From: Pseudoalteromonas piscicida
GTDB taxonomy: Bacteria > Pseudomonadota > Gammaproteobacteria > Enterobacterales > Alteromonadaceae
Assembly (NCBI RefSeq): GCF_000238315.3
Contig: NZ_CP011924.1
Location: forward strand, 3,183,001 to 3,247,000
DNA length: 64,000 nucleotides
Direction: 5' to 3'
Shown: one piece after another, positions 7,688 to 40,529 of the stretch
Layout: each line of letters starts with the position of its first letter
Position numbering within the stretch: position 1 is the stretch's first letter
Translations under genes and position numbers: made by a program
Notes under the pieces: generated by a model
Databases searched by the model: none
Told to the model about the DNA's origin: nothing
The model's input: the letters and a program-made list of their open reading frames with translations, nothing else

Positions 7688-7695
7688 AATATTCC

Positions 7696-9383: not shown

Positions 9384-11520
9384 GTTCGGATACCGAAGCC
9401 TGCTCTTCATCCTCATGATGTTGCGGCTTTTTAAGCTTAATCTCTCTATCCGCTGAAGCAATGGTCTCTTTCCGGTGCGCGATGATAATACGTGTTATCT
9501 TCAACCGAGATACTGCATCATTAATATCTTCTTCCAGCCCAGTATCAAGGTGACTCGTTGCTTCATCCATAAACAGTATTTTCGGATCTTTATATAGAGC
9601 ACGCGCCAAGATGATCCGCTGTTTCTGTCCTCCAGATAAGCTCGACCCCATATCACCAATCAAGCTGTCATACCCCATTGGCATATCGCTGATATCATCA
9701 TGAATGGCGGCAAGTTGGGCACAGTGCACCACTTTTTCCATATTGATTGGTGAATCAAAAAAGGCGATATTATCAGCCACAGTACCGGATAGGAGCTCAT
9801 CGTCTTGCATCACCGCAGCAATCTGCTGGCGATATTGCCTAGCGCCAATTTGGCTAAGAGATATACCATCCACCAAGATTTCACCATTAGATGGTTTATT
9901 TAGCCCCAGCATTAACTTAAGTAGCGTCGACTTACCGCAACCAGAAGGCCCTGTAATTGCTACTGACTCGCCCGCATTGATTGTTAAGTTTAGTTTTTCA
10001 ATAACATTTGGTGTTGCGTCTGAATATGCGAACGACAAATTTTTTACTTCAATTTTGCCTTCGATATTCAGTTTGCGATATTGATCTGGTTGTAACTCTT
10101 CTTTATCCGTTAAAGCAATATCAGCGATACGGTCAAAGTGGAGGCCTAACATCTTAAACTCAATGAGCTTTTCTATAAGATTTGCGGTCTTATCCATAAA
10201 CTGACGCTTGTAAGACATAAAAGCAAACAGCATACCGGTACTAAATCCACCAGCAATCACCAAGTGTGCCGCCAAATAAACCACAATGATATTCTCAACA
10301 CCAAATAGCGCGCGGTTAATCGCGTCATAGCCAATTTTAAAATTACCCAAGCGGATATTGTGGTTAATCGCACTAGCGTAGCGATTTTGCCACTGTCCTT
10401 CTCGCTTTACTTCTGAGCCAAATAATTTAATCGTTTGGATCCCGCGTACCGTTTCCATAAAGTTGGAATTTTCTTTTGCGCGCGCCATGATTTCTTGCTC
10501 ACTGATATTGCGAAATGGCTTATACATGGCCATTCTGATAATCGCGTAAGTGATCACAGCCACCAACACCACAGCGGATAGCATAGGACTATAAAAGAAG
10601 ATCATCGCTAAGGTAATAATCGCCATTAAGCCATCAATAATCGCCTCAATGACCCCAGTTGTAAGGAGCTGCTTTACTTGCTGAAGAGAGCCGAAGCGAG
10701 AAACAACATCCCCCATATGGCGCTTCTCAAAATAGGCGATGGGTAAGCGCACTAAGTGGTGAAATAGGTTCGCCCCCAATTGAATATTCATCTGATTACC
10801 AAAGTGCAGCAAGGTAAAGCCACGCAGTGCATTGGTGGCGATTTCAAAAAGCAGTACTAAAAAGAACCCAATCGCCAGCACCGTCAAGAGTGAGGTGTCA
10901 CCAGTGAGTATGACATCATCTATAACCAGCTGAATATAATAGGGTGCTGCTAGCGTAAATACTTGCAGCAAAATGGAAAGCATAAAAATAAGTAACAACG
11001 AGCGTTTTAAGCCCGTAATACGGCTCCAAAAATCGGAAAATCTAAGACTCGCTTTTTGCTCTTTCTTTTCGAAGTCTTTGGTTGGCGTTAACTCCAAAGC
11101 CACGCCAGTAAAATGCTTGGAGGCTTCTTCCATCGTAAAGGTTTTTTCGCCACCAGCGGGGTCATGGATCACAATGCGCTTTTCGTTGGCCTTCTTAAGC
11201 ACCACAAAATGGTTCATGTCCCAATGTAAAATTGCCGGTGTTTGCAGCGCATCTAGATCTTCAAGCTCAATTCGCAGAGGCCTTGAAGTTAAATGGAGCT
11301 TTTCAGCAAAGTGCATAATGTCGAGCAGCGTACAGCCTTCGATTGAAATACTAAAACGCTGCCTTAAGCGAGTTAAATCAGTGCGATAGCCGTGATATCC
11401 AGCAACCATAGCAAGACTCGCGAGGCCACACTCTGCCGCTTCTGATTGGATGATCACTGGTAAAGATTTCCGCGACCAAAACTCTAACTTATTGGCTGCG
11501 CCTTCATGTTCCATTTCCAT
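9376..11520 (-). CDS. lanT: Peptidase-containing ABC exporter (LanT, C39 bacteriocin-processing type)
   Basis: A 714-residue inner-membrane exporter that cuts leaders after Gly-Gly and pumps the peptide out. The N-terminal C39 cysteine peptidase shows QSEAAECGLASLAM (catalytic Cys about residue 31), MNHFVVL (His) and HDPAGG (Asp). A six-helix membrane domain follows at about 165-440. The nucleotide-binding domain has ITGPSGCGKSTLLKL (Walker A), LSGGQKQR (signature) and ILFMDEATSHLD (Walker B). Its specificity matches the VAGG and IAGG ends of the two leaders. Start supported by AAAAGGG. hlyD lies 17 nt upstream, so the two are probably one unit. A C39 exporter is the usual arrangement for class II lanthipeptides; with LanB/LanC it replaces a separate LanP protease. 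Confidence 0.95.
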   Translation of the reverse strand: MEMEHEGAANKLEFWSRKSLPVIIQSEAAECGLASLAMVAGYHGYRTDLTRLRQRFSISIEGCTLLDIMHFAEKLHLTSRPLRIELEDLDALQTPAILHWDMNHFVVLKKANEKRIVIHDPAGGEKTFTMEEASKHFTGVALELTPTKDFEKKEQKASLRFSDFWSRITGLKRSLLLIFMLSILLQVFTLAAPYYIQLVIDDVILTGDTSLLTVLAIGFFLVLLFEIATNALRGFTLLHFGNQMNIQLGANLFHHLVRLPIAYFEKRHMGDVVSRFGSLQQVKQLLTTGVIEAIIDGLMAIITLAMIFFYSPMLSAVVLVAVITYAIIRMAMYKPFRNISEQEIMARAKENSNFMETVRGIQTIKLFGSEVKREGQWQNRYASAINHNIRLGNFKIGYDAINRALFGVENIIVVYLAAHLVIAGGFSTGMLFAFMSYKRQFMDKTANLIEKLIEFKMLGLHFDRIADIALTDKEELQPDQYRKLNIEGKIEVKNLSFAYSDATPNVIEKLNLTINAGESVAITGPSGCGKSTLLKLMLGLNKPSNGEILVDGISLSQIGARQYRQQIAAVMQDDELLSGTVADNIAFFDSPINMEKVVHCAQLAAIHDDISDMPMGYDSLIGDMGSSLSGGQKQRIILARALYKDPKILFMDEATSHLDTGLEEDINDAVSRLKITRIIIAHRKETIASADREIKLKKPQHHEDEEQASVSEQK

Positions 11521-11537
11521 ATCAACCCTTTTACTTC

Positions 11538-12782
11538 TTATAACTGGCCTTTGATGCTAAACACTGGGTCAAACAGCCAACGCAATAAAGAGCGTTCTTC
11601 TACCACAATATCCGCATCAAGCGTCATACCTGCACGCAAGACTGTATCTTTACCATATGCTTTTACTGCTTGTTCATCCAACGCAACAACAACACGGTAC
11701 GCAGGCTCTTGAATTATACCTGGCATGTTGGTTTCCTCAGGCAAGATCACACTATTACTGAGCTCTACAATCTTTCCTTTGTAAATGCCAAATTTTTCGT
11801 AGGGAAACGCGTGATAGCGTAGCTTAGTCTCTTGCCCTTCTTTGATAAAGCCAAACGCTGATGTAGGTATATAAACGATTGCCTGCATGTCACTGTGTTC
11901 GGGGATCAAGGTCAGTAAATGCTGACCCATGGAAACATTTTTGCCAAGTTTAGCGAGCAATCCCGTAACTACCCCTGACTGAGCTGCGCGAACTTCACCA
12001 AGCCGCTCCTGCTCAATGGACGAGATTTGTATCAGTAGATCTGCTTGCTGCGATTGCAGCTGAGAAATTCTGTTTTGATGTTCAATCGGCAGTTTCGCCA
12101 ACTGATTTTTAATATTTTTCAGCTGTGACTCAAGCGCAATACGCTCTGAACGGATTGAAGACGCTTGTTGCTTGAGTGAAAGCAAAGTGTCTTTTTGACG
12201 TTGTAGCTCAAGTTCAGAAATATAACCAGTGCCTTTTAAGGTCGCAATTTGCGATACTAAATCTTGATTAAGTAGTAGCCGCTCTTGGAACGTACTTGCT
12301 TGGCTCTCAAGTTCTTTTAACTTTTCTTTTGCGGTCGTTTCTTGTTGCTGTAGCTCTTCAATATCAAGCTGGTACTGTCCACGCAGTTGCTCTATCTGCT
12401 GTAGTAAGTTCTTTTGCTGAAAGCGATATTGATTCAGCAATGCTTGATTCAACTCAGTGGCTTCGGTGCTATGTTTTGCAGATGCAATTCGCAGCAAAGG
12501 TTGCCCAGCAGCGACTTGTTCACCCTCTTTGACCAATACCTCAGACACCACCCCCTGTTGCATTGCAGCAACACGCAGCAGTCCACCACTGGGTTCAATA
12601 ACGCCAGATACTCTTTCCTTTCTGGTATAGCTACCACTTGATAGAAACACGATGCTTAAAATCACAACCGTTAAAATGAGTAACCCCAGAGTCTTAAATA
12701 CGGGCGGTTGGATTAAGCTAATTGTGCCCTCTAAGCGGTGCTGTTTATGCTCTAACACCTCACGGCGAAATAAATTTTCCAT
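11538..12782 (-). CDS. HlyD-family membrane fusion protein (lanthipeptide export)
   Basis: A 414-residue periplasmic adaptor linking the LanT exporter to an outer-membrane channel, as in type I secretion. A short cytoplasmic N-terminus is followed by one membrane helix (LGLLILTVVILSIVFLSSG, about residues 31-50). A lipoyl-like half follows (VSEVLVKEGEQVAAGQPLLR), then a long coiled coil rich in Gln, Leu and Glu (about 95-240), the second lipoyl half (QSGVVTGLLAKLGKNVSMGQ) and a beta-barrel C-terminus. Upstream of and probably co-transcribed with lanT. No TolC-like gene is in the window, so a housekeeping TolC is likely used. The ribosome-binding site is weak. Confidence 0.92.
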   Translation of the reverse strand: MENLFRREVLEHKQHRLEGTISLIQPPVFKTLGLLILTVVILSIVFLSSGSYTRKERVSGVIEPSGGLLRVAAMQQGVVSEVLVKEGEQVAAGQPLLRIASAKHSTEATELNQALLNQYRFQQKNLLQQIEQLRGQYQLDIEELQQQETTAKEKLKELESQASTFQERLLLNQDLVSQIATLKGTGYISELELQRQKDTLLSLKQQASSIRSERIALESQLKNIKNQLAKLPIEHQNRISQLQSQQADLLIQISSIEQERLGEVRAAQSGVVTGLLAKLGKNVSMGQHLLTLIPEHSDMQAIVYIPTSAFGFIKEGQETKLRYHAFPYEKFGIYKGKIVELSNSVILPEETNMPGIIQEPAYRVVVALDEQAVKAYGKDTVLRAGMTLDADIVVEERSLLRWLFDPVFSIKGQL

Positions 12783-12862
12783 AGCACTTATCGGGTAATA
12801 TTATTGTTAATATTTTTTTATTGAAAATACAATGTACCATGGGTGGTAACAGAAAGGAATGA

Positions 12863-12889
12863 AATAAGGCAAGTCATGCTTGCCTTATT
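12863..12889 (-). terminator. Terminator of glmU
   Basis: Perfect 11-bp inverted repeat AATAAGGCAAG / CTTGCCTTATT with a TCATG loop. Read on the minus strand it ends in TTATTTCATT and lies about 40 nt after the glmU stop codon, separating glmU from hlyD. Confidence 0.85.
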
Positions 12890-12931
12890 GGTGTCTAGAG
12901 GAACTTAAAGCTGTCCCTATAATAATAATTC

Positions 12932-14293
12932 TTAAGACTTTTTAATTGGTCGCTGCCAGCCATCCAAGTTACGCTGTTTTCCTCGCGCGACTGCCAATTG
13001 CTCATCTTTCACGCTTGAGGTAATCACTGAACCTGCGCCAATCGTTGCCGTACTACCAATTTCAACTGGTGCAACTAGTGATGAATTAGAGCCAATAAAG
13101 GCATTATCACCGATAATAGTTTTAGACTTATTCACACCGTCATAGTTACACGTAATGGTTCCGGCACCAATATTCACCTTTTCCCCAATTTCAGCATCTC
13201 CAAGGTAGGTCAAGTGATTAGCTTTTGAACCTTTACCCAAACGAGATTTCTTCATCTCGACAAAGTTACCAATATGAGAATCTTCTTCCATTATCGCGCC
13301 AGGACGCAAGCGAGCAAATGGACCTAAAGTGCACTTATCAGCGACCAGCGCATCTTCGATAAGCGTATTAGCTTTAATCACAACGCCATTACCGATTTTA
13401 CAGTTTTTAAGTACACAGTTTGGACCAATGACGACATCATCGCCAATTTCAACATGGCCTTCAAATATCACGTTAACATCAATCTGAACATCTTCACCAG
13501 TTGTTACAAGTCCACGCACATCAATGCGAGCAGGATCCGCTAAACTAGCACCATTAATCATCAAGGTTTCAGCTTGCCAAGTTTGATAAGCGCGCTCTAA
13601 AGCAGCAAGTTGTACCCGGTTATTGGCACCTTCTACTTCCATCTCATCATCAGGTTGTGCAGAAGTAATTTCTACCCCTTCGCTGTGCGCCATCGCCACG
13701 ATATCAGTGAGGTAATATTCACCTTGTGCGTTATTGTTCGATAACTGTCCAAGCCACTTTTTCAATAATCCACCGTTAGCCGCCATTATGCCTGTATTGA
13801 TCTCAGTAATAGCAAGTTGCTCCGCAGACGCATCTTTTTGTTCGACAATACCAACCAATTTGCCATTTTCTCGCAGCATACGGCCGTAACCTGTCGGGTT
13901 TACTAAATCAACAGTGAGTACAGCAAGGCCGTTATCAGGCGTCACATCCAGCAAACGCTGCAGCGTGCTCAGCTTTGTGAGAGGCACATCACCATAGAGG
14001 ATCAGTACTTTATCGTCATCACCAATATGCTCCTTTGCTACCGCGACAGCATGACCAGTACCCAACTGCTCAGCTTGATGCACCCAGTTCACTTCATTAT
14101 GTGATAACGCGGCTTGTAGCTGCTGCGCACCATGACCAAAAACTAAATTGGTAGACTGCGCGCCTAACGACACCGCATTGTCGATGACATGCTGTACCAT
14201 GGGTTTTCCTGCGATAGGATGAAGGACCTTTGGTAACTTAGAGCGCATGCGAGTGCCTTTACCCGCAGCTAGAATAATTGTATTTAACGGCAT
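12932..14293 (-). CDS. glmU: Bifunctional GlmU (GlcN-1-P acetyltransferase / GlcNAc-1-P uridylyltransferase)
   Basis: Makes UDP-N-acetylglucosamine, the precursor for peptidoglycan and lipopolysaccharide, in the cytoplasm. It has 453 residues, the normal length. The N-terminal nucleotidyltransferase domain shows the signature [26 protein letters not shown] and EINTGIMA are further active-site motifs. The C-terminal half is a left-handed beta-helix of hexapeptide repeats, with [20 protein letters not shown] and [11 protein letters not shown] typical of the acetyltransferase site. ATG at 14293 is preferred over GTG at 14299 by spacing from AGGA. The gene stands alone with its own terminator between the two biosynthetic clusters, not beside ATP synthase genes as in many gammaproteobacteria. 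It looks like an intact housekeeping gene. Confidence 0.97.
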
Positions 14294-14479
14294 GAACACA
14301 GGATCCTTTTTCTTGTGTCAAAAAACATACGTACAGTTCAATACTCTTGTCTTTAATCCGGTCACTTCATTGTGCACCGTAATACTGAAATGGCTTTAGC
14401 AGACAACAAGCACTTACTAAGTACAAATTGCGCAATATTGTAGCGGGGTTTGTTTGGAAAAGTAAGGGTCAAAAAAGTA

Positions 14480-26502: not shown

Positions 26503-27501
26503 TTAACTTACATATAAAGTCGACTCTACTTTTTTATTCTTTGCTTTCCACCAGCTTTCCACCACAAGCGTTCTCAACAGCCAACGATCTTTGCCATCAA
26601 ATCTGGGACTGTAAGCATTACGAGAATGAACCACTCTACGATTGTCAAAGACCAGCATCTCGCCCTCAGCTAAGGTTAAAGTCAAACACCCTTTCACGAT
26701 AGAGTCTTTAAGAGACGAGAAAGCTTCGGCTGATGCGCTACTGCACGCTTCCATGTAAGCTGGGTCGTAAATAATTTCAGGATCTTCAGTACCATCCAGC
26801 ACTTTTACCTTGGTACTACGTAAATCACCCTCGTTGTTAAATGTGAGATCTTCCCAAATTAGATAGTCTAATTGGCTCAGTTGTACACGCTCTGCATCTG
26901 ACAAATTCAGGTGATTTGCCGGCATCAAATATGTTTTTACTTCAGGGTCATCCCTTAAACATAGCAGTGTAACGAAATCAGCTTTCGTTTCGTGAAATCC
27001 ATCTTCAACATGCCATTCAAGAAATACACTGTTGGTGCCTACTTGCTTGTTAGAATCTTTCTTTATCGGATAGATATCGTCTACCAACCCAGTGGTGATT
27101 TTATCTTTAAAGTTATATACATACCCTAATGATACGGAAATGATCGATTGTAATAGCGCGGCATAATCTCGCTGCTTACCCTTAATTTCATTTTTCGCGA
27201 GCGGTGTATCACGAAGCCCCTGTAGTAGCGGCAAATTCTTTATCAATAGATAGCTATGGTCACCGCCTTTAAACTTGAACTCAAGCAGCTTTCTTTTAAC
27301 TCTACGAGGAAATTTATTCCATGTTTCTAGATAGTTAAAAGTGATATCTGCACCATCTTTTGAGTTAACTGTATTATGCTGTCTGACTAGTTGTTCTATT
27401 TTTTCTTTTTCATCATCCAATAAGGTGAGGATCAAGCCTCCACAATCAGACTTCGCTTCTTGTTGATACTCAGCGGGGCTAAGCTCTTTTAATAGTTCCA
27501 T
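26503..27501 (-). CDS. Fe(II)/2-oxoglutarate oxygenase, VioC/AsnO (clavaminate synthase-like) type
   Basis: A 332-residue non-haem iron oxygenase related to amino acid beta-hydroxylases VioC (Arg) and AsnO (Asn). The first two iron ligands are in LEWHVEDGFH (His and Glu, near residue 162), followed by the family-typical FVTLLCLRDDP. The distal His and the 2-oxoglutarate Arg are in NRRVVHSRNAYSPRFDG and DRWLLRTLV. GGAG 6 nt upstream supports the start. It lies between the module 7 NRPS and the terminal NRPS. Characterised relatives mostly hydroxylate free amino acids at C3. Module 7 has an Arg-like pocket code, so supply of a hydroxylated Arg-type residue is a reasonable guess; Asn for module 3 is the other candidate. 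Confidence 0.85.
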   Translation of the reverse strand: MELLKELSPAEYQQEAKSDCGGLILTLLDDEKEKIEQLVRQHNTVNSKDGADITFNYLETWNKFPRRVKRKLLEFKFKGGDHSYLLIKNLPLLQGLRDTPLAKNEIKGKQRDYAALLQSIISVSLGYVYNFKDKITTGLVDDIYPIKKDSNKQVGTNSVFLEWHVEDGFHETKADFVTLLCLRDDPEVKTYLMPANHLNLSDAERVQLSQLDYLIWEDLTFNNEGDLRSTKVKVLDGTEDPEIIYDPAYMEACSSASAEAFSSLKDSIVKGCLTLTLAEGEMLVFDNRRVVHSRNAYSPRFDGKDRWLLRTLVVESWWKAKNKKVESTLYVS

Positions 27502-30600: not shown

Positions 30601-31135
30601 TATTCATATCACATGAAATAATAGTTTGAACTTCAGATTCGAGCATCTCACCCGTGAGATGCTCGAGATTCTCCACAGTGATGCTAAAGTCAATTTCAGC
30701 CATATCACGAATGACCTGCTGTACTTCACCGGCATCTGATAAATACACTGTGCGCAATATTTCGTGACGCTCAATAATTGCTGCAAATACTTTGGTCAGC
30801 GTTGCAAGATCAAGTGTACCACTTACCTCAAAAGCAACAGGCATGTTGTACTCAGCGGATCCTTTTTGCATGCTATCAATAAACCATAACCTTTGCTGCG
30901 CAAATGAAGCAGGTTGAAGCTTATCATCCCGCTTTGGACGGCTAATGATAGTGGGAATACCTGTATTTTCCTGTTGTTGAAGCAAAGAAACAATTTCACT
31001 TTTCTTCGCTATAATTTGTGCTTTTATTTCATTATCCATCACTCCTGGCGGTGCTTTAAAAGCCAAGCTACCATTCTCAAGATATAAAATAATGCCCTTA
31101 TTCTTAACTTCTCTAAGCAACTCAACTACGCTCAT
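27608..31135 (-). CDS. NRPS, C-A-T (module 7)
   Basis: A 1175-residue single-module synthetase: TubC-like docking domain (1-55), LCL-type C domain (FAQQRLWFID; HHIASDGWS), A domain (MYTSGTTGKPKG; YCTGDL; NGKVDKKAL) and T domain (FFELGGHSLL). The pocket code reads DIGDSGLIDK, which I cannot match to a standard entry. The acidic residue at position 278 resembles Arg-type pockets, so a basic side chain is suggested. YGQTE replaces the usual YGPTE. The ATG at 31135 overlaps the upstream stop (ATGA) with AAGGTGG just before it, showing translational coupling; an ATG 21 nt upstream is rejected. The protein ends KKNSIVI, a possible docking tail for the terminal NRPS. Confidence 0.93.
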   Translation of the reverse strand: MSVVELLREVKNKGIILYLENGSLAFKAPPGVMDNEIKAQIIAKKSEIVSLLQQQENTGIPTIISRPKRDDKLQPASFAQQRLWFIDSMQKGSAEYNMPVAFEVSGTLDLATLTKVFAAIIERHEILRTVYLSDAGEVQQVIRDMAEIDFSITVENLEHLTGEMLESEVQTIISCDMNTPFNLAQDLMLRVSYIHKAEGSGVLLFNMHHIASDGWSTEILIKEFITLYQAFSEGEQNPLPELPVQYADYSHWQREYVAGEVLDGQLRYWESQLKDIPMIHSLPCDFSRQKSKQTMGKLVHGQLSGKLAKTLLDTAKKLQLTPFMLVHAGFSLLLARHSNSNDIVIGTPIANRTQAELESLIGLFTNTLILRANTEHKSLHEYFDHIRQVHLGAQSNQDVPFEQLVERLNVPRSSEYSPLFQVMLTTSSDFGVNENSNSQTLALPNAELKAYLSDQVQAKFDIELNVSISELGASLDWTFDDGLFETQHIEQLNQHLCSLFEAIGSVNDPKQVAPSSLPMMSEIEINRLVHELNGVEQSYDNEKCIHELFEQQVASSPKQTAVVFADKALTFAELNQKANQVAHCLRAKHEITPDTLIGLCVERSLEMVVCILGILKAGAAYVPLDPSHPNNRLMDIISETEPKVVLTQSELLNKFELSESKMLIVDDLIDGDNSPFIEYPTDNLDKSTIGLTTNHLAYVMYTSGTTGKPKGIMVQHCGLLARKAGWDHIFEIDKTPLTVLQMAGLSVDILLGDIIKALYSNAGKLIVCPYETLISAHELCNLINIHQVTYGDFVPSVVRELGHYLVNNEQKLHGLKFISIGCEAWKVDDLELLNQVVDNSTRIFNLYGQTETVIDASYFDTSKYGIEYLRSGSIPLGTPFPNTALYVLDDNRQLVPNGVTGTLYVAGHGLAKGYFGNSELTAEKFVRNESSDIKEQRLYCTGDLVRRLSDGSLEFVGRVDEQVKIRGFRIELSEIEAQISALSDVDSAVVMAKEVQGSLQIVAYVKPLDLAMVTNTEESSESQFKAALRSVLKEKLPEYMLPTIVMIIESWPLNANGKVDKKALPEPDRASIGQEYVAPKTEVEEHLAKVWSELLNLEVQQISTTANFFELGGHSLLISRLVATLNEQYEISLALKEVFELPTIKGIAALVEASKAAAVKQVETTVSEKKNSIVI

Positions 31136-34100
31136 AGTAAACCACCTTCCATACATTCTAATTCTTCATTATTTGCACTGTTTAACAGCAGTAATGGTTC
31201 GATGTGCGCTGCAAGTTCAGCAATTGTTTTATTTTGAAATAACACTCGAACACTAATGTTTATTTTGAACTCTTCTTGAATGCGATTTAGTACTTTCATT
31301 GCCAAGAGAGAGTGTCCTCCGATAGCAAAGAAATCATGCGTAGTGCCAATCAACATAGATGTATTCAAGAGCTCTTGCCAAATATGAGCAAGCTGTACCT
31401 CGACTTCCGTTTCAGGCTTTACATAGTCTGAATTAGTATGGTTTAACGCACTTTCAATTAGAGTTTTAGTATCTAACTTACCGTTGGATAAATAGGGGAA
31501 TGCCTCTAGCTCTATCAGCTGTTTTGGCTGCATATATTCAGGTAACTTATTGGCCAACAATTGCGTAAGCTCAGCTTCGGAGGCAGTAGGAGCAATAATA
31601 AATAGAGAAAGTCCACCTCCAGCAACAACACATTTTGCTTGCTCCGCAAGACCTGCATTCAAAATAATCATAGAAACTTCATCAGGTTCTATTCTAAAGC
31701 CATTAAGTTTTACTTGATTATCAAGACGCTCTAAGTACATTAAGTTACCGTCTGACAACACTTGGACATGATCACCGGTTTTATAAAAATCCAAGTGACT
31801 AGTATTACAATGAATCAGTGCTTTCGCCGTTAAAGCGTCTTGACCAAAGTAACCATTGAAAACGGAATCACCTGCGATTTGTAACTCACCGGTTTCACCT
31901 ATTTCGGCAAGACAACCATCTTCTTTCATGACCCGACACTGTAAGTTATCAATTGGGTATCCGATAGGCACAAAATCTGTTGCTGTCGCACGCTCATAGC
32001 GCCAAAATAAAGCATCAATACAGCACTCAGATGGCCCATATAGATTAATAACTTCACAATTAAAAGCTTGCATAGTTTTATCTGCGGTTGAGCTCTTCAA
32101 TGCCTCACCGCCACAAAATACACTTTTTAGCGCGAACGATACAGAACCATCAATGTGTTCAAGTAACAAGTCTAATAGTGATGGCACAAGCTGTAGTCGA
32201 GTGATCGAATAGTCATGCATCGTACGCTTGAACAGTGGTAGATCATAATTGATTTCACTTGGGGCAATAACCATCGTTGCGCCAACCATCAACGGTGCCC
32301 AAAACTCCCAAATTGATGCATCAAAACTTGCTGATGTTCGTTGCAGGAAACGATCGTCTTTTGCAAATGTAAATTCATCATTAATCCAGTTCATATGATT
32401 GAGCAAAGCTTTGTGACTGATACTTACTCCCTTGGCCTTTCCTGTAGAGCCAGAGGTAAATAAAATATATGCTAAATCTGTTTCTTGAATAGTTATATCC
32501 GGTGCTGTAGCAGCGTACTGCTCGAGCTTGAGCTCATTTAAATCAATGTTTTTACAGCCAGTGACCTCATACTCACCAACACTTATCACCGTACTTGCTT
32601 GCGCGTCTTTAAGCATATCGGTGATACGCTGATGCGGCAGGTCAATATCGATAGGAACATATGTTGCACCCGCTTTCATCGTCGCCAACATCGCAATGAC
32701 GAAGTCCACTGAACGGACCAGACATAGCGCAACGACATCACCTTTACCTACTCCTTGATGTTGTAAATAATTCGCCAGTTGGTTTGCTGCACAATCAACA
32801 TCTGCGAGTGTTTTTTCCTTACCATTTAACTCAAGCACGCTACCGTTGCCTGCAGCGACGACCTTATTAACGTGATCTAATACCGTTACTCCCGATGTAG
32901 TAACCACTTTACCATAACCTTGATATGTAGCATCAAGATGCTGAGTGACAATACCAACATGATTAGTTAACGCCACTTTTATCTGATTAAGTAAATAAGT
33001 GACGGCTTGAGCGTCAACATATTCGCTATCATACGTTAGTTGTAAACGACTTTCACTCTCTTGCTGAATATAAGTAAACTGTAACTTACACGCTTCAGTT
33101 AAGTGCTTTACCTGCTCGATTTGCAGTGTCGGCAGATCTAAATTAACTACGCTATCAAAGATAAAGCTAAAACCTGCGGACTCATGATCATGACTTTTAG
33201 CAAAACACTCAGCGTAATCAACACCGTGCTCACTACATTCAAGTTCGTTCTGTATAGCGTCATTAAAATTGTCAGCAACTTCTGGGAATAAAGGCACAGC
33301 CCGACTCAATGGTCCGATAGCATCCGCTAAATCACTGTCAGAACGGCTATCGAACATTCTAGCAAGTTCGGCCTTTGGTGCAAACTTCTTCAACGCCAAA
33401 CGCAAACTCGCACATACTACTTCAGCGCTCGTCGCTTGGTGTTGTTCAGCAAAACGTGAGATTTCACCTTGAATATCACCAAGGTTGATATAGTCAAATT
33501 TGTACTCTGATTTTCCATCATGCTTATATCGTTGCAACGTACATTTATTAACCAACGCGGCAACACTTTTATCCCTCGCCCAAAATTGACGAGCTTCTGT
33601 TAATTCCTCATCTAACAAGAAATCTGCTAACCAAGGTGCTAGCTCTTCATACTGGATGACTTCATTTTGCAGCCAAGTCTGTGCATCATTGGAACACTCG
33701 CTACCAGCGGCAAGAATCAACTGCATTAGATGAGCCAATGTAAAACTATCTGTGTTTAGAGCGCTCATTTCAAGGCAGCACCAGTAGCTATTGCTTTGCT
33801 GCGCAATGACTAATCGTAACCAAGGAGTGGTAAAGTCGCTTGATTGTTTTTCCCCGATTATAGTGTTTTCTAACTTACGCTGTGCTATTTGTGCGTCTGT
33901 ATAACCACGCCAATCCTCTGTCACCAATTCAATCGGATCAAGATCTCTGATATTTTGCCAGAGCCCACCAAATTCATCGACCTCATAGGCCGTGCGGATA
34001 ATATCCAAACGCTCTACTAAAGTGGTCAAATATGCACTGATAGCTTCAATATCTAAGCTACCCGTATGTAAAACACTAATTGAGCCAAGCTGAATTGACT

Positions 34101-34170
34101 TATCCATATTGTTGTTCAGCTGGATCCAATGCGCGTTTTGAATTGGAGACGCCAATACTTTTTTATTCAT
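31132..34170 (-). CDS. NRPS, degenerate C-A-T (module 6 adenylation and carrier)
   Basis: A 1012-residue protein with no TubC-like docking domain. The first 420 or so residues have the C-domain fold (QYEELAPWLADFLLDEELTE aligns with the usual QYADYAHW region). The catalytic HHxxxDG is replaced by MSALNTD, so it cannot condense by the normal mechanism. The A domain is intact (LFTSGSTGKAKG, YKTGD, SNGKLDTKTL) with the code DAWQFGLIDK, close to known Gln-type codes. T is intact (FFAIGGHSLL). The upstream 1217-residue protein has an active C but no working A or T, so the two may form one split module. AAGGA precedes the start; a 222-nt gap lies upstream. It ends EGGLL and overlaps the next gene by ATGA. 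Confidence 0.9.
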   Translation of the reverse strand: MNKKVLASPIQNAHWIQLNNNMDKSIQLGSISVLHTGSLDIEAISAYLTTLVERLDIIRTAYEVDEFGGLWQNIRDLDPIELVTEDWRGYTDAQIAQRKLENTIIGEKQSSDFTTPWLRLVIAQQSNSYWCCLEMSALNTDSFTLAHLMQLILAAGSECSNDAQTWLQNEVIQYEELAPWLADFLLDEELTEARQFWARDKSVAALVNKCTLQRYKHDGKSEYKFDYINLGDIQGEISRFAEQHQATSAEVVCASLRLALKKFAPKAELARMFDSRSDSDLADAIGPLSRAVPLFPEVADNFNDAIQNELECSEHGVDYAECFAKSHDHESAGFSFIFDSVVNLDLPTLQIEQVKHLTEACKLQFTYIQQESESRLQLTYDSEYVDAQAVTYLLNQIKVALTNHVGIVTQHLDATYQGYGKVVTTSGVTVLDHVNKVVAAGNGSVLELNGKEKTLADVDCAANQLANYLQHQGVGKGDVVALCLVRSVDFVIAMLATMKAGATYVPIDIDLPHQRITDMLKDAQASTVISVGEYEVTGCKNIDLNELKLEQYAATAPDITIQETDLAYILFTSGSTGKAKGVSISHKALLNHMNWINDEFTFAKDDRFLQRTSASFDASIWEFWAPLMVGATMVIAPSEINYDLPLFKRTMHDYSITRLQLVPSLLDLLLEHIDGSVSFALKSVFCGGEALKSSTADKTMQAFNCEVINLYGPSECCIDALFWRYERATATDFVPIGYPIDNLQCRVMKEDGCLAEIGETGELQIAGDSVFNGYFGQDALTAKALIHCNTSHLDFYKTGDHVQVLSDGNLMYLERLDNQVKLNGFRIEPDEVSMIILNAGLAEQAKCVVAGGGLSLFIIAPTASEAELTQLLANKLPEYMQPKQLIELEAFPYLSNGKLDTKTLIESALNHTNSDYVKPETEVEVQLAHIWQELLNTSMLIGTTHDFFAIGGHSLLAMKVLNRIQEEFKINISVRVLFQNKTIAELAAHIEPLLLLNSANNEELECMEGGLL

Positions 34171-34392
34171 TGGGTTATTCCTTGTTTTTTCTGCATGAAT
34201 ACATGCAAAAACGGTTTACCATTATTCACTTTTAGTTATTTAAAATGCAGCGAACGACTAATAATGCCCACTTTTATTTGCTTGTTCTTTAAGTTGTAAA
34301 GCAAAATAGCCAGAAACTACTTTCATCAATACGATTTCTAAAACGGTATGTACTAATTATTAATACCTACCAAAAAATATTTGTTCTCGTCC

Positions 34393-35424
34393 CTACAGAA
34401 ACCCGACCTCCATTTCTTGCTCTGCTTGATGAGCGAGAGAAGGAAAGCTGCCATGCTCAATATAGTGTGCCAACTCTTGTTCTATTTCACTTAGTACTAC
34501 ACAGATGTTATTCAATTTATCTTGATTGTTGCGAAGCTCTAGCTGTTCCCCGACGATGCTAAAGTCAATATATTTTTTGAATGAGGTAAAATCTTTAAAT
34601 TGCGCATAACAGCCGGTAAACAAACCTTCCCATCCCGCAAATGGTGGTGGAAATCTAAATTCATCATGCTCTTTGAAGCCGTATTTCGGGTTGGTAATAA
34701 TGAACTTCATAGCAACACCAATACGCTCAAACTCCGAGGGGCCTGATGAATGGAACTGATTTGCTCTGAAAATGTAAGCATCACCTAACTGCGGTTTCAC
34801 AACTGTAGTGCTCTGCATATCACTTTTTGGCAAAATATTAATTTTCCCTTTTGCGTCATGGTACAGGTAGCTATCGCGTAATTTTTCGATTTCTATGCCT
34901 GTAAACTCTTGAGCCAAACCGAGATAGTCAGGTGCCTGAGTCGCTCCATCAATGAGAAAGTTAGTCTTTGGTATATTGTTATTCCCATAGAGGCTTGGCA
35001 CCTGCTCTGACGTCATCACTTCAAATAGTGGTTGTTCACTTAACTTCTCAAGCGCAGATTGACGATATAACGGGATCCAGAGGTTATAGCAAGGCCCTAA
35101 CCATTGGTCAATTGAGTCTACGTGCCACTGATATTTATTAGCTTTGTTTAATTCAGTAACCGGCCTCACTGCTGAGTTCTTCAGATTAACGGGTGCAACA
35201 AAATCATTGACGTAAGCAATGTCATCTCGACAAATACCGGGATGAATATCCTGTAACGCTGCAACGACAATATCGAGTAGCGCGTTAGCATGAACTTCAA
35301 CAAACTTCCGATTAACGTAATGAAGTTGGTTGTAAAAACAATCCTTAGCTTCAATTCCTCGAATGGTAGAGCGCACAAGCCCAAATAAAAGCTCATCAGA
35401 GATAGCTTTATCTAGTTTTAGCAT
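34393..35424 (-). CDS. Putative Fe(II)/2-oxoglutarate oxygenase (PhyH-like) with NRPS-style C-terminal tail
   Basis: A 343-residue protein with a plausible non-haem iron facial triad: His-x-Asp in YQWHVDSID near residue 99 and a distal His in NQFHSSGPSEFERIG near residue 223, with the following Arg as 2-oxoglutarate anchor. The pattern HxD...H...R with a GDAYIFRA strand fits the phytanoyl-CoA dioxygenase-like superfamily, but I do not recognise a named enzyme. ATG at 35424 has AAGGA 9 nt away; an ATG at 35430 is open but only 3 nt from it. The C-terminus QEMEVGFL resembles the short tails that end the NRPS proteins here and may dock it to the line. It sits between a SyrP-like oxygenase and module 6, with gaps on both sides. 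Confidence 0.72.
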   Translation of the reverse strand: MLKLDKAISDELLFGLVRSTIRGIEAKDCFYNQLHYVNRKFVEVHANALLDIVVAALQDIHPGICRDDIAYVNDFVAPVNLKNSAVRPVTELNKANKYQWHVDSIDQWLGPCYNLWIPLYRQSALEKLSEQPLFEVMTSEQVPSLYGNNNIPKTNFLIDGATQAPDYLGLAQEFTGIEIEKLRDSYLYHDAKGKINILPKSDMQSTTVVKPQLGDAYIFRANQFHSSGPSEFERIGVAMKFIITNPKYGFKEHDEFRFPPPFAGWEGLFTGCYAQFKDFTSFKKYIDFSIVGEQLELRNNQDKLNNICVVLSEIEQELAHYIEHGSFPSLAHQAEQEMEVGFL

Positions 35425-35430
35425 AAACAT

Positions 35431-35877
35431 AGATCCTTTTTATATCGTAAAATTCTTTATTTTTGACTCAATGTCGATCTGTTCCATGGTATGTGTAGCA
35501 ATAACACGTAATCTCTACGCCCATCCACTTCAACTTTCAAAGAAGTAGTGCCAACCAAGCATGTCCTTGGTCGTTGGATATAGTCGTGGGCAAGCCCACC
35601 AAGCAAAACAAATAGCTCTATGAGTTTAGATTTTCACAAACTAACAAAAACAAGGTATTAGTATAAACCAACGCCATTTAGGAATGCGCATCACGCTTCT
35701 ACCATTCAGGCTATTGCTAGCTCAATATTAAAGTGTTTCGATTATTAAATATATTTAAATTTTTACACCGAGTCAATTAACAAAGGTATAAAAATGACTA
35801 ATTTACAAACAAAGCTCCTTTGGTCGATATATTATCATCTCATGCGTGAGACGATAATATATCTCGACAAGGCTCAC
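35431..35877. other. Intergenic region between the two oxygenase genes
   Basis: About 447 nt of AT-rich sequence without a convincing gene on either strand. An imperfect hairpin lies at its right end (35828-35861). Being upstream of the PhyH-like gene and unusually long for this operon, it probably holds an internal promoter, but I cannot point to clear -35/-10 boxes. Confidence 0.5.
35828..35861 (-). other. Hairpin just after the SyrP-like gene
   Basis: 15-bp arms TATATTATCATCTCA / TGAGACGATAATATA with one mismatch and a TGCG loop, about 17 nt after the stop codon of the SyrP-like gene on the minus strand. No U-tract follows, so it may slow transcription or protect the 3' end rather than terminate fully. 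Confidence 0.5.
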
Positions 35878-36879
35878 TTAGCCCATGGCCACAAGCACTC
35901 TACGAGCACCAGTAAATGGTTTTCGGCCATGTGCAACCAACCAATTATCTATCAGTAATACATCCCCTTCACGCCAGTCAAACTTCACTTCCTCTTTCGT
36001 ATACGCCAGCCTCAGTGCTTCGACTGTCTTGTCATCAATGTCGCTACCATCACCATAGCGCGTTGAATAGGGAAAATCCTCAAGAGCTAAGTCTTCTTGC
36101 ATTTTTGCTCTCACATCTGGGCATAGGTTATTTGTATGCCAAAAAGAGATATGGTTAAACCAGACTCTTTCTCCACTAATTGGATGTTGATGCACAGCCT
36201 TTCGAACCTGTTCAGTGACTACTTTTTCATCCGAAATTGGTGTCACTTTTAAATCAACCTTTTCTCCATAAGCTTTTATGTCTGCAATATCTGTCATACC
36301 GAACGCTTTCGCCACTGTTGGTCCATATCCATTGCCATAATTCCTACGTAATAACCAGCCTTCTCGCTTTTCGAATTCGGATACGATATCACTGTCAATT
36401 CGATTCAGCACTTTACGTACATCGACCAGTTGAGTTTGACCACCACTTTCAGGGGCGGTCAAACAGCAAAATGCTAACTTACTTGGTGGCTCTGTGACAT
36501 ACGATAACTCGTTATGCAAAGCAATTTCTTGATCAGAAGGAAACTCTGTGGCCGTATAAACCCCTTTTGATAGCTTTGTCCTCGGCGTTGCCCCTTCCAC
36601 ATACTTAGCGGTCTGTTTGATGCTAGTGGCAACAAACTGCTGGAAATCATCTTCGCTATGTATGTTAAAACCGCGGAATAACACAGCGCCATATTTAGCA
36701 AGCTCTTGCACTATTTCCGACTCATTCTGATTATACCAAGTCGGTAAATCAACGTTTGCCGTATTGCACTTATACACTACAGGCAATGTAGGTGATTCTT
36801 CTAAAAAAACCTTTGAAACTAATGAACTTATCGGCGTTGTAGTTTCACTTTTTTTATTACGCCATTTATTAAAACTCAT
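35878..36879 (-). CDS. TauD/SyrP-like Fe(II)/2-oxoglutarate oxygenase
   Basis: A 333-residue member of the TauD/TfdA superfamily, closest in layout to SyrP-type beta-hydroxylases that act on carrier-bound amino acids. The first two iron ligands are in ALHNELSYV (His-x-Glu, near residue 121); the distal His and 2-oxoglutarate Arg are in LVAHGRKPFTGARRVLVAMG at the C-terminus. YGAVLFRGF is the usual TauD N-terminal strand. The ATG overlaps the stop codon of the 1217-residue NRPS (ATGA) and GAAGGA lies 9 nt upstream, so the two are coupled and probably work together. Substrate is unknown; Gln at module 6 or another line-bound residue fits the position. Some SyrP-family hydroxylases use catalytically dead C-like interface domains, and such domains flank this gene. 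Confidence 0.88.
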   Translation of the reverse strand: MSFNKWRNKKSETTTPISSLVSKVFLEESPTLPVVYKCNTANVDLPTWYNQNESEIVQELAKYGAVLFRGFNIHSEDDFQQFVATSIKQTAKYVEGATPRTKLSKGVYTATEFPSDQEIALHNELSYVTEPPSKLAFCCLTAPESGGQTQLVDVRKVLNRIDSDIVSEFEKREGWLLRRNYGNGYGPTVAKAFGMTDIADIKAYGEKVDLKVTPISDEKVVTEQVRKAVHQHPISGERVWFNHISFWHTNNLCPDVRAKMQEDLALEDFPYSTRYGDGSDIDDKTVEALRLAYTKEEVKFDWREGDVLLIDNWLVAHGRKPFTGARRVLVAMG

Positions 36880-39800
36880 GCTACGTTTCCTTCAACTGAG
36901 AATTGACTCTTATTTCTCACTGATTTAAATTTTCGCTTCGCTGAACGCAACTTGCTGCGGGCATCTTCGTTCAATATTGTTTTCACTTCCGCAAGCGTTT
37001 TGCTCTGCAACTCATGGGATGCCAACATCGCTATTATTTTTTCCAATCGACGCAACGTTGATTGATCAAAACAACTATTTTGCAAGCGCCATTGACCCTC
37101 TATTTTTTCTGTGCTCAGTCTGTCTGAAACCAATAAGCTCACTGAGCTGTCTGTCACAAGCTCTTGCTGCATCATAGTATCCGACACAAACTTTAACTGA
37201 TAGGCAAAAATAGTCTTCCAATCGGTGCCGCATTTTTGATTGTATTGTTGCGTTATCCAATTTTTATCAACAAATTCGTATTCTACACCTTGTGATAAAT
37301 TATCTAGAATGATTTTCAGGTTGTCTTGAACTCGTGCATCTTTACAAAATGAACTAGACAAAACGCCACTACCGACTGTAGATGAAGATACTCCAGACAC
37401 CGTACTTAAGATACAATCACTTTCAGAGTTAATCACTAGGGCCAAATTAAAAATTGCAGAAAAGGCCTTTGCAATTGTCACATTATACTGACACGCTAAA
37501 TTTCGCAATGCAAATGATACTTCTTTATCGAGGAAAAAATCAACTGTTTCTGTTGTGGAACCTTGCAGTTGTAAGTCAGCCTCCAATAATTCCGGTTGAG
37601 GTAACGCAGCTAAGTTGTCTTGCCAACTTTGTGTATGGTGCCACAGCGCTTCACGATTGACCGTACCTCCATTTCGAATCGGCATATTTGATACTATTAC
37701 GTATAACTTTGGTAATAGATATGTAGGTACCAATTGTTTTAAATTATGCTGAACTGCTTTCAGTTGCTCTTGCTGTGCAGCACTGCTACCCGACAATCTT
37801 AGGTAAACCACTTTTTCTATCACCGCAACTTGAATCGTTTGCGGCTGAGCTGAGATAATATTTTCTAGAAATACATCATCACGGCTCATTTTCAAAGCTC
37901 CATAGTGAATAGCTTCGATAGTTCCAGCATTAGTTTCTCGCACCAACATATTAGTATTTTCAAAGTTATTATTTGCATCAACGGTATAGAGATAACCAAT
38001 AGCACCTGTGGGAGCAAGATTCTTATCGTCAAACATCACTTTCGCTTGATGCTTGTCAAAAGCTCTCCCCAACGAGATAGCCTTACCAGCAATCACTTTC
38101 TCTGCACAAATATAACCTTGTAGGCCAAGACTCAAGACAGATGTTACCGAGTATAGCTCACTCCATCGCCACAGTAATGAATCAGCACCAGACTCTGCAT
38201 GAATGATAAGCTGCTGAATAGCATAATCCTTACATAAAGTCACATCAGCAAGCAGTGCAGCTGTTAGCGTCAAGTGTGTCACTTCTTTAGTGATTAAAGT
38301 ATCTTCAAGGTCTCGAGCAGCCTCTAACAACACCAGTTTAGCTCCTGACGCGAGTCCTGTAATCCAATCTATACGATTGGTTTTCTCTGTTTCCGGATGA
38401 ATTAACAAGTTTGCATTCTTATTTAGCTGCATCGTTTGCTGCTGCCTGAGCACCTGTTGTAACAAAAGTGCATGGCTTACTCTACCATTATTCAGTCGAC
38501 TATCCATTATCGCTCGGTCAAAAGACCTGATAGAGACCTCATCCTGTCGCATATTTGCTGAAGAAAATGCCTTAAGCTCATCATCTGAAGGCACTCGTAA
38601 TGCGTTACCAGATAGGCGGCTTACCGTGCACTCTGAAAATAGCAAGACGCTACCTTGAGCTACGATGTTGTTGAACCAGTCTGTACTTTCAAAGATGTCA
38701 TGACATTCATATATCGCCCCAGCTTTTAATACAGCCAACTTGGCAACATAACGGGACACCCCTTGGATTGCACACAGATGTATTTGCTGTCCCTGCACAA
38801 CCCCATTTTGAATTAAATATCTCGCCAGTTGATTTGCCTTTTCATTTAACTCCTTATAAGTGAGTGAACAATCGCCACTGTCGATAGCCGTCGCATCCCC
38901 TTTCGTCTCAACCATATTCTCAATCAACGAGTGGACCGACGTAAATGACTCCAATGGAAGCAACTTCGGAGTTAGTGCTTCAGTCGTGTTTGCCAATGCT
39001 AACTTATCTACCGCTATATCCACATTCACAGATAATTGACGCAATATCATATCAAAACTATTGGACATTGATTGAACCGTTTCAAAGTCAAACAGATCTG
39101 TTGAGTAGGTCAGATTTAACCAAAGCCCACCCTCACCTTCTTCAGCAACCATTTGCAAATCGTACTTAGTTAGTGAGTTTTCGCCCATCACAGGATAAGT
39201 CTCCAACCCGTTCAACTCAAAATCAGACTTTTCTGTGTTTTGTAGCGTAAACATCACCTGAAATAGCGGGCTATGACTCAGCTCTCTCGGTATTTTCAAA
39301 CGATCAACCAACGAATCAAAAGGTATATCCTGATGATCAAATGCAGATAACGTATTCTCTCTATTGCGACCAAGTAGGGAGCGGAAACTTTCTCCTTCAG
39401 TCCATTCGCTACGATATGTCATGCTGTTAATGAAGTAACCGATCATAGGGGACACCTGAGGGTGAGTGCGACCCGCAATAGGACTTCCAATAACTACATC
39501 TCTTGTCTGGCTCCAACGCCCAATCAATACTGAAAATGCGGTATATAGCATCATAAAAAATGTTGCTTGATTTTCTTTTGCTCTTGCTTTTAATCCCTGG
39601 ACCTGTTCATTATCAACAAACCAAGAATGTGTCTTTCCAGCGAACTTTTGCTGTGCACCTCGAGGCCTATCGAACGGTAGTGCATGGGAATAAGGCGCAC
39701 CTTTGAGCATTTTTTCCCAATACACTAACTGCTCAGATATGCGAGTTTCGGTATAGTAGTTGCGTTGCCAGTGAGCATAGTCGCAATACTGAATATCTAA

Positions 39801-40529
39801 CATAGGCAGTGGATCTGGCAGCTGTTTGCAATAACTTTCGTAAAGTGTCGCAAATTCTTGGATCATGATGGCCTGTGACCAAGCATCAGAGGCTATATGA
39901 TGCAATGTAAAAAACAATACATGATCGTGTTCTGTTCGTACGACTACTTTTGCTTTCAACATTAAATCAGATTGCAAGTTAAAGACTTGGTTCATCTCTT
40001 GGTTCGAGATCTGAAGTATTCTTTCCTGTTGTTCTTGCGGCGAAAAGCCTTTTAAATCAACAATCGGCAGCTCCATGTACTGAAGAGGCTGAACTTCTTG
40101 GCAGACTTCTCCTTCTTTCTCAATATATACAGTACGCAATACTTGATGGCGCTCAATTAATTTATTAACAGCCCACTGTACTGCCGCCAAATTTAGCTCT
40201 CCTTTGAGGCCAAACGCTGCATGTATATTATATTGATTACTTCCCCCTTCTAGCTGGTCAATAAACCATAGACCTTGCTGCGCAAAGGTAAGTGGCAATA
40301 TTTTACTCTTATCTACTGGCGTGATCAGTGTTTCATTCTCCGCTTTCTGCTTTAGCAGTTCCTGTTCTCGTAGATAGGCACTTATTTGATCTTTGTTCTC
40401 ACGGATCAATGTTTTCAGTTCATCAGGAAAGCCGCCTTCCTCGCTGATATAGGCTAGCTGCTCGCCTTTTAAATAAAGCACAATATTACAAGCTTCTGCG
40501 TGGGCGATAATTTGTTGTGGTGAATTCAT
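36876..40529 (-). CDS. NRPS-like protein: active C, degenerate A-like domain, C-domain remnant, no carrier
   Basis: A 1217-residue protein. It has a TubC-like docking domain (1-55) and a C domain with the catalytic His retained (TLHHIASDAWS; Ala replaces the usual Gly). Residues of roughly 510-1000 follow an A-domain plan at first (YKELNEKANQLARYL, VLKAGAIYE). They lack the ATP-binding TSGSTG, the YGPTE and the YRTGD motifs, and the A10 Lys region reads NGGTVNREAL. The last 200 or so residues resemble the second lobe of a C domain (FFLDKEVSFALRNLACQYNV). No GGHSL carrier motif exists. The frame is open throughout, so this is not a recent pseudogene. The start overlaps the preceding stop (TAATG) and the end overlaps the SyrP-like start. 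It probably supplies the condensation step for module 6 and may scaffold the oxygenases. Confidence 0.88.
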   Translation of the reverse strand: MNSPQQIIAHAEACNIVLYLKGEQLAYISEEGGFPDELKTLIRENKDQISAYLREQELLKQKAENETLITPVDKSKILPLTFAQQGLWFIDQLEGGSNQYNIHAAFGLKGELNLAAVQWAVNKLIERHQVLRTVYIEKEGEVCQEVQPLQYMELPIVDLKGFSPQEQQERILQISNQEMNQVFNLQSDLMLKAKVVVRTEHDHVLFFTLHHIASDAWSQAIMIQEFATLYESYCKQLPDPLPMLDIQYCDYAHWQRNYYTETRISEQLVYWEKMLKGAPYSHALPFDRPRGAQQKFAGKTHSWFVDNEQVQGLKARAKENQATFFMMLYTAFSVLIGRWSQTRDVVIGSPIAGRTHPQVSPMIGYFINSMTYRSEWTEGESFRSLLGRNRENTLSAFDHQDIPFDSLVDRLKIPRELSHSPLFQVMFTLQNTEKSDFELNGLETYPVMGENSLTKYDLQMVAEEGEGGLWLNLTYSTDLFDFETVQSMSNSFDMILRQLSVNVDIAVDKLALANTTEALTPKLLPLESFTSVHSLIENMVETKGDATAIDSGDCSLTYKELNEKANQLARYLIQNGVVQGQQIHLCAIQGVSRYVAKLAVLKAGAIYECHDIFESTDWFNNIVAQGSVLLFSECTVSRLSGNALRVPSDDELKAFSSANMRQDEVSIRSFDRAIMDSRLNNGRVSHALLLQQVLRQQQTMQLNKNANLLIHPETEKTNRIDWITGLASGAKLVLLEAARDLEDTLITKEVTHLTLTAALLADVTLCKDYAIQQLIIHAESGADSLLWRWSELYSVTSVLSLGLQGYICAEKVIAGKAISLGRAFDKHQAKVMFDDKNLAPTGAIGYLYTVDANNNFENTNMLVRETNAGTIEAIHYGALKMSRDDVFLENIISAQPQTIQVAVIEKVVYLRLSGSSAAQQEQLKAVQHNLKQLVPTYLLPKLYVIVSNMPIRNGGTVNREALWHHTQSWQDNLAALPQPELLEADLQLQGSTTETVDFFLDKEVSFALRNLACQYNVTIAKAFSAIFNLALVINSESDCILSTVSGVSSSTVGSGVLSSSFCKDARVQDNLKIILDNLSQGVEYEFVDKNWITQQYNQKCGTDWKTIFAYQLKFVSDTMMQQELVTDSSVSLLVSDRLSTEKIEGQWRLQNSCFDQSTLRRLEKIIAMLASHELQSKTLAEVKTILNEDARSKLRSAKRKFKSVRNKSQFSVEGNVA

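Follow-up and report, generated by a model that had tools for sequence, protein, structure and literature searches.

Retention of a dead adenylation domain and half a condensation domain in a predicted split nonribosomal peptide synthetase module of Pseudoalteromonas piscicida

Interface domains, as Reitz and colleagues are said to have described them in 2019, are dead domains of the condensation (C) superfamily that are paired with an Fe(II)/2-oxoglutarate (2OG) beta-hydroxylase beside a loaded adenylation-carrier (A-T) unit. Those of the siderophore beta-hydroxylases are treated in parts of PMC12230676 and PMC12971057, and a C-TauD fusion before the Asp module of hydroxy-Asp siderophores is described in sections of PMC7100376 (PtcB) and PMC12628792. 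According to passages of PMC8949500, the X domain of glycopeptide synthetases is a dead C fold that recruits oxygenases, the last module of the syringomycin line is split over two proteins (SyrE and SyrB1) with the amino acid modified on a separate A-T, and the inactive A domain of the albicidin, ramoplanin and enduracidin lines is complemented by a stand-alone A-T. In the present study, a stretch of 64,000 nucleotides of Pseudoalteromonas piscicida was analyzed (hereafter the window; RefSeq assembly GCF_000238315.3, contig NZ_CP011924.1, positions 3,183,001 to 3,247,000), in which a nonribosomal peptide synthetase (NRPS)-polyketide synthase (PKS) assembly line on the minus strand contains a protein of 1217 amino acids (aa), herein named B, and a protein of 1012 aa, herein named E, with two oxygenase genes between them. 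B, a TauD-type oxygenase and E, together with their counterparts in other genomes, are referred to as the cassette, the dead A domain of B as A*, the dead C domain of E as C*, and the C domain ending the intact-module relatives of B as C'. We propose, with rather more confidence than doubt, that B and E form one working elongation module that would supply a hydroxylated residue, and that the dead half of B (residues 520-1217) is a fossil module kept as a scaffold.

Protein B (36876..40529, minus strand, as for all of the genes of the line) consists of a TubC_N docking domain, an active C domain, A*, a lobe of a second C domain and a basic tail. The TubC_N domain (residues 6-55; 40365..40514; Pfam PF18563, E 2.9e-8) would have the upstream hybrid NRPS-PKS subunit as its partner. 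The C domain (residues 61-519; 38973..40349; Pfam Condensation at residues 75-517) carries HHIASDAW and is regarded as active on the basis of the Pfam match, its conservation, with 198 of 459 columns invariant in seven orthologs, and its ratio of nonsynonymous to synonymous substitution rates (dN/dS). In A* (residues 520-985; 37575..38972), none of the motifs A3, A4, A5, A7 and A8 can be recognized in any of the seven orthologs upon alignment to the A domain of E, the A10 lysine is kept in G113 and G029 alone (G-numbers are genome labels, G000 being the genome of the window), and the Pfam AMP-binding profile matches with merely its first ~70 positions (residues 539-607). The C' lobe (residues 986-1185; 36975..37574), recognized from sequence and trees, stands directly behind A*, and its profile matches positions ~204-430 of ordinary C domains, i.e. 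the C-terminal lobe (best E 2e-7, 145 C domains); the carrier and the catalytic N-terminal lobe are missing, and no PP-binding match was obtained in B with Pfam even at E <= 10. The near-invariant tail (36879..36974), with RSAKRKFK in six of the seven orthologs and RSVKRKFK in G125, gives the last 30 residues a net charge of +6 to +9 in all seven.

Protein E (31132..34170) has the order C*-A-T, and its Condensation, AMP-binding and PP-binding domains all pass the Pfam cut-offs. C* (residues 1-425; 32896..34170) belongs to the C superfamily by fold and lacks HHxxxDG, in place of which SALNTDS is found (33745..33765). The second His of this motif is absent from C* in all nine known cassettes, that of G094 having a His one place later (PNHYADL); of the 145 C domains gathered by an ordinary C profile, 143 keep the second His and the Asp, and one of the two exceptions is a relative of C* in G259. 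The A domain (31426..32895) is active by its intact A3-A10 motifs, and the carrier (31171..31425; Pfam PF00550, E 3.5e-16) carries GGHSLL. G066 and G035 have the substrate code DAWQFGLVNK, and the other five orthologs, as well as G094 and G007, have DAWQFGLIDK; the latter is listed as a Gln code in an excerpt of the published table of PMC2866473, and the A domain of E is thus predicted most likely to load Gln. Frames, Pfam matches and motif alignment all agree with the first-pass annotation, which had described the 1217-aa protein as an active C domain, an A-like domain without ATP motifs, a C-domain remnant and no carrier, and the 1012-aa protein as a dead C-like domain followed by working A and T domains; the remnant can be specified as exactly the C-terminal lobe of a C domain. 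The same annotation had read the two proteins as one functional module with C on B and A-T on E, and this reading is upheld by the domain order, together with a presumed joint function, because B is without a carrier and its C domain could only condense onto the carrier of E.

Full-length B was found in seven of 108 Pseudoalteromonas genomes searched with residues 520-1217, about ten best candidates being scored per genome, at identities of 100, 95, 50, 39, 38, 29 and 29%; no internal stop was observed in any of the seven, and the length is kept at 1199-1221 aa. In a scan of named genomes, the sole match was Pseudoalteromonas sp. S2755, with 95% identity over the dead half. The order B-TauD-E is kept in all seven orthologs, and the cassette is found in two different assembly lines: gene order is alike in five genomes over 39-kb stretches (the last subunit of G125 being two frames), and in G066 and G035 the cassette has other flanking NRPS genes, with a subunit of 5270/5269 aa before B, a subunit of 3455 aa after E, and no second oxygenase there. 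The dN/dS values were determined by the Nei-Gojobori method for the close pairs G000/G116, G113/G029 and G066/G035, in this order, the pair G000/G125 being excluded because its synonymous sites are saturated. For residues 520-1217 of B, values of 0.173 (confidence interval 0.102-0.255), 0.116 (0.072-0.185) and 0.136 (0.099-0.170) were obtained, compared with 0.023, 0.069 and 0.034 for TubC_N and the C domain of B; the values were 0.129, 0.229 and 0.239 for C* and 0.108, 0.123 and 0.144 for the A domain of E. Purifying selection acts on the dead half of B as a whole, though less strongly than on the working C domain of the protein. The first-pass annotation had taken the long open frames as a sign of retained function and had named frequent stops or relaxed selection in relatives as the signs to the contrary; with no stop in seven orthologs and a dN/dS of 0.12-0.17, retention of the dead domains stands, though with some relaxation, which is weighed below.

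The TauD-type Fe(II)/2OG oxygenase (333 aa; 35878..36879; Pfam PF02668, E 2.7e-45) carries an HxE...H triad (H122, E124 and H317) that is invariant in nine of nine cassettes, its HxE being aligned with those of 1y0z and 9yut; with the PF02668 domain and an HxD/E...H triad, it belongs to the TauD/TfdA family. The second oxygenase (345 aa; 34393..35430) is Fe/2OG-like, with Pfam matches below the cut-off and with H103, D105 and H227 invariant in five orthologs. Two iron oxygenases had been placed at the core of the module in the earlier annotation, and both frames do lie between B and E, but the conserved unit holds only one, TauD, since the second oxygenase is missing from the cassette in two of the seven orthologs (G066 and G035) and thus stands outside the minimal cassette. 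None of the 22 open reading frames (ORFs) of at least 200 aa in the window gave a Pfam match to a cytochrome P450.

Several short sequences in these proteins are candidates for docking. The TauD begins with MSFNKWR (36859..36879), and the motif MxF[ND]xW[KR] is found at the N-terminus of all nine cassette TauDs versus none of 22 other non-redundant TauDs at the loci examined; the nine are related, so this count does not represent nine independent events. The second oxygenase ends in EMEVGFL (34396..34416), which resembles the C-terminal docking tails of NRPS proteins; EMExGFL is present in five of five orthologs, and six of the last seven columns are invariant versus four of the preceding 22. 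E itself ends in the similar MEGGLL, and we read the end of the second oxygenase as a candidate NRPS docking tail on an oxygenase. The TubC_N domain of the next subunit (1182 aa; 30974..31129; Pfam PF18563, E 9.2e-15) would likely be the partner of the tail of E, and perhaps of that of the second oxygenase. The ordinary hand-over from tail to TubC_N seems to be absent between B and E, because E gave no TubC_N match with Pfam and the tail of B is basic. Over the last 30 residues, the charge is +8 in the B-type proteins of G094 and G007, -3 in the subunits of 2697, 2239 and 1110 aa, -6 in E, 0 in the FAAL protein, +1 in the 1182-aa subunit and +4 in the GntD/VioC-like oxygenase of the line. The dead domains might serve as a binding surface, as had been suggested before. 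A special acidity of C* as a partner of basic tails was considered and rejected as evidence, as ordinary C domains overlap with it in charge: C* carries a net charge between -25 and -32 in the seven orthologs, of -13 in G007 and of -31 in G094, against a median among other C domains of -19 per 400 aa, with 24 of 145 at -25 or below.

The origin of the dead half is suggested by two relatives, G094 and G007, which were reached by TauD and C* profile searches of 107 genomes of the genus. A C-A-T-C' protein in G094 and an A-T-C' protein in G007, the latter cut by a contig end, are each followed by a TauD and then by C*-A-T. The A and T motifs of the proteins before TauD are intact by eye, and C' keeps its second His (SHIAVDG in G094 and SHIATDG in G007). 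C* is already without the second His in both (PNHYADL and SCLSVDY, respectively) while C' is intact, so that C* most likely died before B decayed. All nine E-type A domains fall into one clade with a support of 1.0 (161 A sequences, 145 distinct), and the nine C* domains form one clade with 0.999 (159 sequences). In trees of C-lobe columns, the lobe of B is sister to C' (FastTree 0.805, 166 sequences; IQ-TREE approximate likelihood-ratio test 95.8 and ultrafast bootstrap (UFBoot) 68, 60 sequences), and it stands apart from the likewise degenerate C*, a point against long-branch attraction. Taken from these comparisons of sequence, B most likely descends from a C-A-T-C' protein. The dead A domain had earlier been described as an addition to an interface domain; a better reading is that an entire A-T-C' module decayed and left this domain behind, since G094 and G007 hold that module intact at the same place. 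In addition, the E-type proteins of G094 and G007 (L172 and L173) carry an extra C-terminal C-like domain of ~430 residues with LHAIQDG, which is not present in E of the window. Two tandem C-like domains (residues ~1190-1601 and ~1643-2059) were also observed in the 5270/5269-aa subunit of G066 and G035 (L070 and L072), the first of which groups with this extra domain at 0.816.

Beyond the genus, samples of genomes were searched. With the C* profile, only G000 and G066 scored high among 394 genomes of the order, all others remaining at <= 55 bits; a weak match of 68 bits was also seen in G026, a genome of the genus. In G259, which belongs to another genus and family of the same order, a dead C domain with PGLILDI, a weak match to the C* profile, is sister to C* at 0.937. 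Its 7.6-kb contig (L199, G259:C136; 5034-7559 and 1851-5009) encodes an active C domain (HHIACDDW) joined to a TauD (HNE) by a linker rich in lysine; this fusion is followed by a protein of dead C-A-T with the code DLTKVGHVGK, the order C', TauD, C*, A and T being that of the cassette. As this code is listed for Asp and Asn in portions of PMC12283262, the G259 module is probably a hydroxy-Asp module, and its linker may be read as a parallel, in position, to the basic tail of B. The A domain of G259 does not join the clade of the E-type A domains (0.514), and neither a B-like protein nor the N-terminal motif of TauD was found on the contig. With a sister in an Asp/Asn module behind a C-TauD fusion, C* is probably a branch of a known kind of hydroxylation module, the interface type. 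The echo of siderophore interface domains noted in the first-pass annotation thus finds some support in this nearest outside relative, but the modules partnered with interface domains use Asp or His, and the code is of the Gln type in all nine cassettes. When 369 genomes of the class were searched with the A*+C' profile, three candidates being scored per genome, none of the matches listed outside the own genome extended past position 445 of 702; in the same number of class genomes, only the own TauD matched the TauD profile from position 1 at E <= 1e-30, and all plasmid matches of E in tblastn were below 60% identity. In the sampled genomes, the dead half of B is found in Pseudoalteromonas only.

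Herein, we propose the following course of events. The upstream NRPS-PKS subunit would dock on the TubC_N domain of B, and the N-terminal C domain of B would join the growing chain to the amino acid on the carrier of E, which the A domain of E would have loaded, most likely with Gln. TauD would hydroxylate this Gln on the carrier, probably at the beta carbon, and the predicted residue is hydroxy-Gln, probably 3-hydroxy-Gln. C*, being catalytically dead, might offer a surface on which partners are recruited or docked, the role proposed for interface domains. An extra A-T-C' module would have left A* and the C' lobe behind: its A domain would have lost the ATP motifs, its carrier and the catalytic N-terminal lobe of C' would have been deleted, and its shell may have been kept as a scaffold that keeps B attached to E, and perhaps to TauD, where an ordinary docking pair would otherwise be expected. 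A more far-reaching version, for which our confidence falls somewhat short of even, is that the NRPS line was shortened by decay, that the shell was selected as a scaffold, and that the second oxygenase mimics an acidic docking tail, so that two modes of tethering would exist in one cluster.

Several results weigh against this proposal, and some of them would favor an origin without a fossil, in which the dead half was recruited as a docking platform from an unrelated module or a duplication and G094 and G007 came to their layout in parallel. A* is placed beside its sister at only 0.133 in the tree of 161 A sequences, a value that does not tie it to the A domain of G094 or G007; the UFBoot value of 68 is a moderate support for the sisterhood of the lobe and C', and the lobe profile matches ordinary C domains better than C'. 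The cassette TauDs do not form one clade either, the seven orthologs being a clade at 1.0 and those of G094 and G007 joining two non-cassette TauDs at 0.554 within a group of 11 at 0.617. Comparison of the N-terminal C domain of B with the first C domain of G094 was likewise indecisive, the set of B proteins being too loose, and the two AlphaFold2 models, made from seven sequences each, are weak (mean predicted local distance difference test scores of 62 and 55), with the A-core fold preserved and the C' lobe barely probed by structure. Nevertheless, an independent recruitment appears unlikely, if worth keeping in mind, because the same neighbours, TauD and then C*-A-T, are found in all nine cassettes, the A domains of E and the C* domains each form one clade, two trees put the lobe beside C' as its sister, and a basic C-terminal tail is present in both the B-type and the C-A-T-C' proteins.

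Selection bears on a different alternative, in which the dead half of B would be mere ballast, drifting and still undeleted. The dead half evolves at 1.7 to 7.5 times the dN/dS of the C domain of B itself, which indicates that some relaxation is real; the bounds on its pieces are wide (C' lobe 0.141, 0.292 and 0.245, with upper bounds of 0.288, 0.872 and 0.388; A-sub piece, upper bound up to 0.93), and these values also count against the proposed scaffold. Together with the loss of the ATP motifs, they are what a relic would be expected to display, but the upper bounds for the dead half as a whole are 0.17-0.26, the frames are open in all seven orthologs down to 29% identity at full length, the A-core fold is kept in the model and the tail is near-invariant, and we regard mere ballast as highly improbable. 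Loading in trans, as in albicidin and ramoplanin, was also considered: E, as a stand-alone A-T, would give the hydroxylated residue to another carrier and complement the dead A domain of B, and a dead A domain in the main line with a separate A-T does fit the pattern outlined in the relevant passages of PMC8949500. This is improbable as well, as B ends in a C lobe and has no carrier to receive the residue, and the docking-like tail of E would fit a direct hand-over to the TubC_N domain of the next subunit.

The scaffold proposal thus concerns the middle of a line that is transcribed from 62405 to 18936. It begins with a fatty acyl-AMP ligase (FAAL)-like A-T protein (677 aa), followed by a C-A-T subunit (1110 aa), an ABC transporter (567 aa), a C-A-T-C-A-T subunit (2239 aa) and the hybrid NRPS-PKS subunit (2697 aa; TubC_N-C-A-T-KS-AT-KR-T, with ketosynthase, acyltransferase and ketoreductase domains), directly behind which stand B, TauD, the second oxygenase and E, in this order. 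The 1182-aa C-A-T subunit comes directly after E, a GntD/VioC-like oxygenase (332 aa; 26503-27501) precedes the last NRPS subunit, and the line ends with this C-A-T-C-A-T-thioesterase subunit (2453 aa). This third oxygenase is kin to GntD, VioC and clavaminate synthase, its match to the NCBIfam family GntD (E 5.5e-48) being below the family cut-off. A 163-aa frame 5' of the FAAL gene (62415-62906) is by eye of the VOC/glyoxalase type. At the other side of the window, LanB- and LanC-like genes (4559-9033) lie beside an ABC transporter with a C39 peptidase (9376-11520), and small frames at 1969-2142 and 9138-9326, both on the plus strand, have a common leader, MKL.LNKK.IKALS...P..MTPQ.AGG, and Cys-containing tails, and are probable precursors of class I lanthipeptides. 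A GlmU-like protein of 455 aa (12932-14299) lies at the edge of the cluster. The proteins encoded at 9376-14299 (transporter, HlyD and GlmU-like) have counterparts of 96-99.8% identity in G028, G080 and G014 (L175, L176 and L177), and LanC and parts of LanB are 93-95% identical in G028 and G080; in all three genomes, these counterparts adjoin an NRPS line of another kind, which has a TauD of its own, so that this place is likely an exchange spot for biosynthetic clusters.

No paper tied to this cluster was found in the part of the literature on Pseudoalteromonas NRPSs and lipopeptides and on strain S2755 that was covered. The flavipulchrins were considered as a product and set aside, since their line, as described in sections of PMC12819058 with a starter C domain, a PKS module and an aminotransferase domain, is unlike this FAAL line. 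Markerless editing has been reported for the genus in PMC12819058. NRPS engineering struggles with the removal and swapping of modules. If the proposal is true, the series from the intact module of G094 and G007 to the retained dead shell of the window and its six orthologs would show how a residue can be lost from a product without breakage of the line, and also which surfaces must stay. The N-terminal motif of TauD, the basic tail of B, C* and the tail of the second oxygenase would be candidate handles for the recruitment of hydroxylases in trans.

In the literature on split modules, docking and interface domains, which was covered for part of the journals, no described case of this layout was found. 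C* resembles the interface domains in being a dead C fold beside an Fe(II)/2OG oxygenase, and its G259 relative has the siderophore-type layout of C-TauD and Asp module; the window differs in its Gln-type code and in that the working C domain is on another protein, together with a dead A domain and half a C domain. C* is also similar to the X domain as a dead C fold, and its profile matches the X structure 4tx2 at E 1.4e-4 (X structures: 4tx2/4tx3), whereas X domains recruit P450s, which gave no match among the ORFs scanned. A special kinship with the X domain was not borne out, as a tyrocidine chain scores better (3.5e-5 versus 1.4e-4); the X domain was absent among the 50 matches listed by VIA-align, from which no exclusion follows. 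In SyrE/SyrB1, as proposed here, the module is split so that the residue is modified on a separate A-T, SyrB2 being an Fe(II)/2OG-type enzyme, but a carrier is retained in SyrE (C-T-TE), with SyrC as the shuttle for the residue, whereas B has no carrier. The albicidin, ramoplanin and enduracidin lines likewise combine an inactive A domain in the main line with an active A-T elsewhere; their receiving module keeps its own carrier, which B has lost. In kutzneride biosynthesis (KtzN/KtzH with KtzO/KtzP), Glu is hydroxylated on the main-line carrier, and the separate loading of a residue followed by hydroxylation of its beta carbon on a carrier is the feature that would be shared with the cassette. 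Thus, the dead A domain and half C domain kept without a carrier represent a variant of split, trans-tailored NRPS modules, rather than a member of the interface family.

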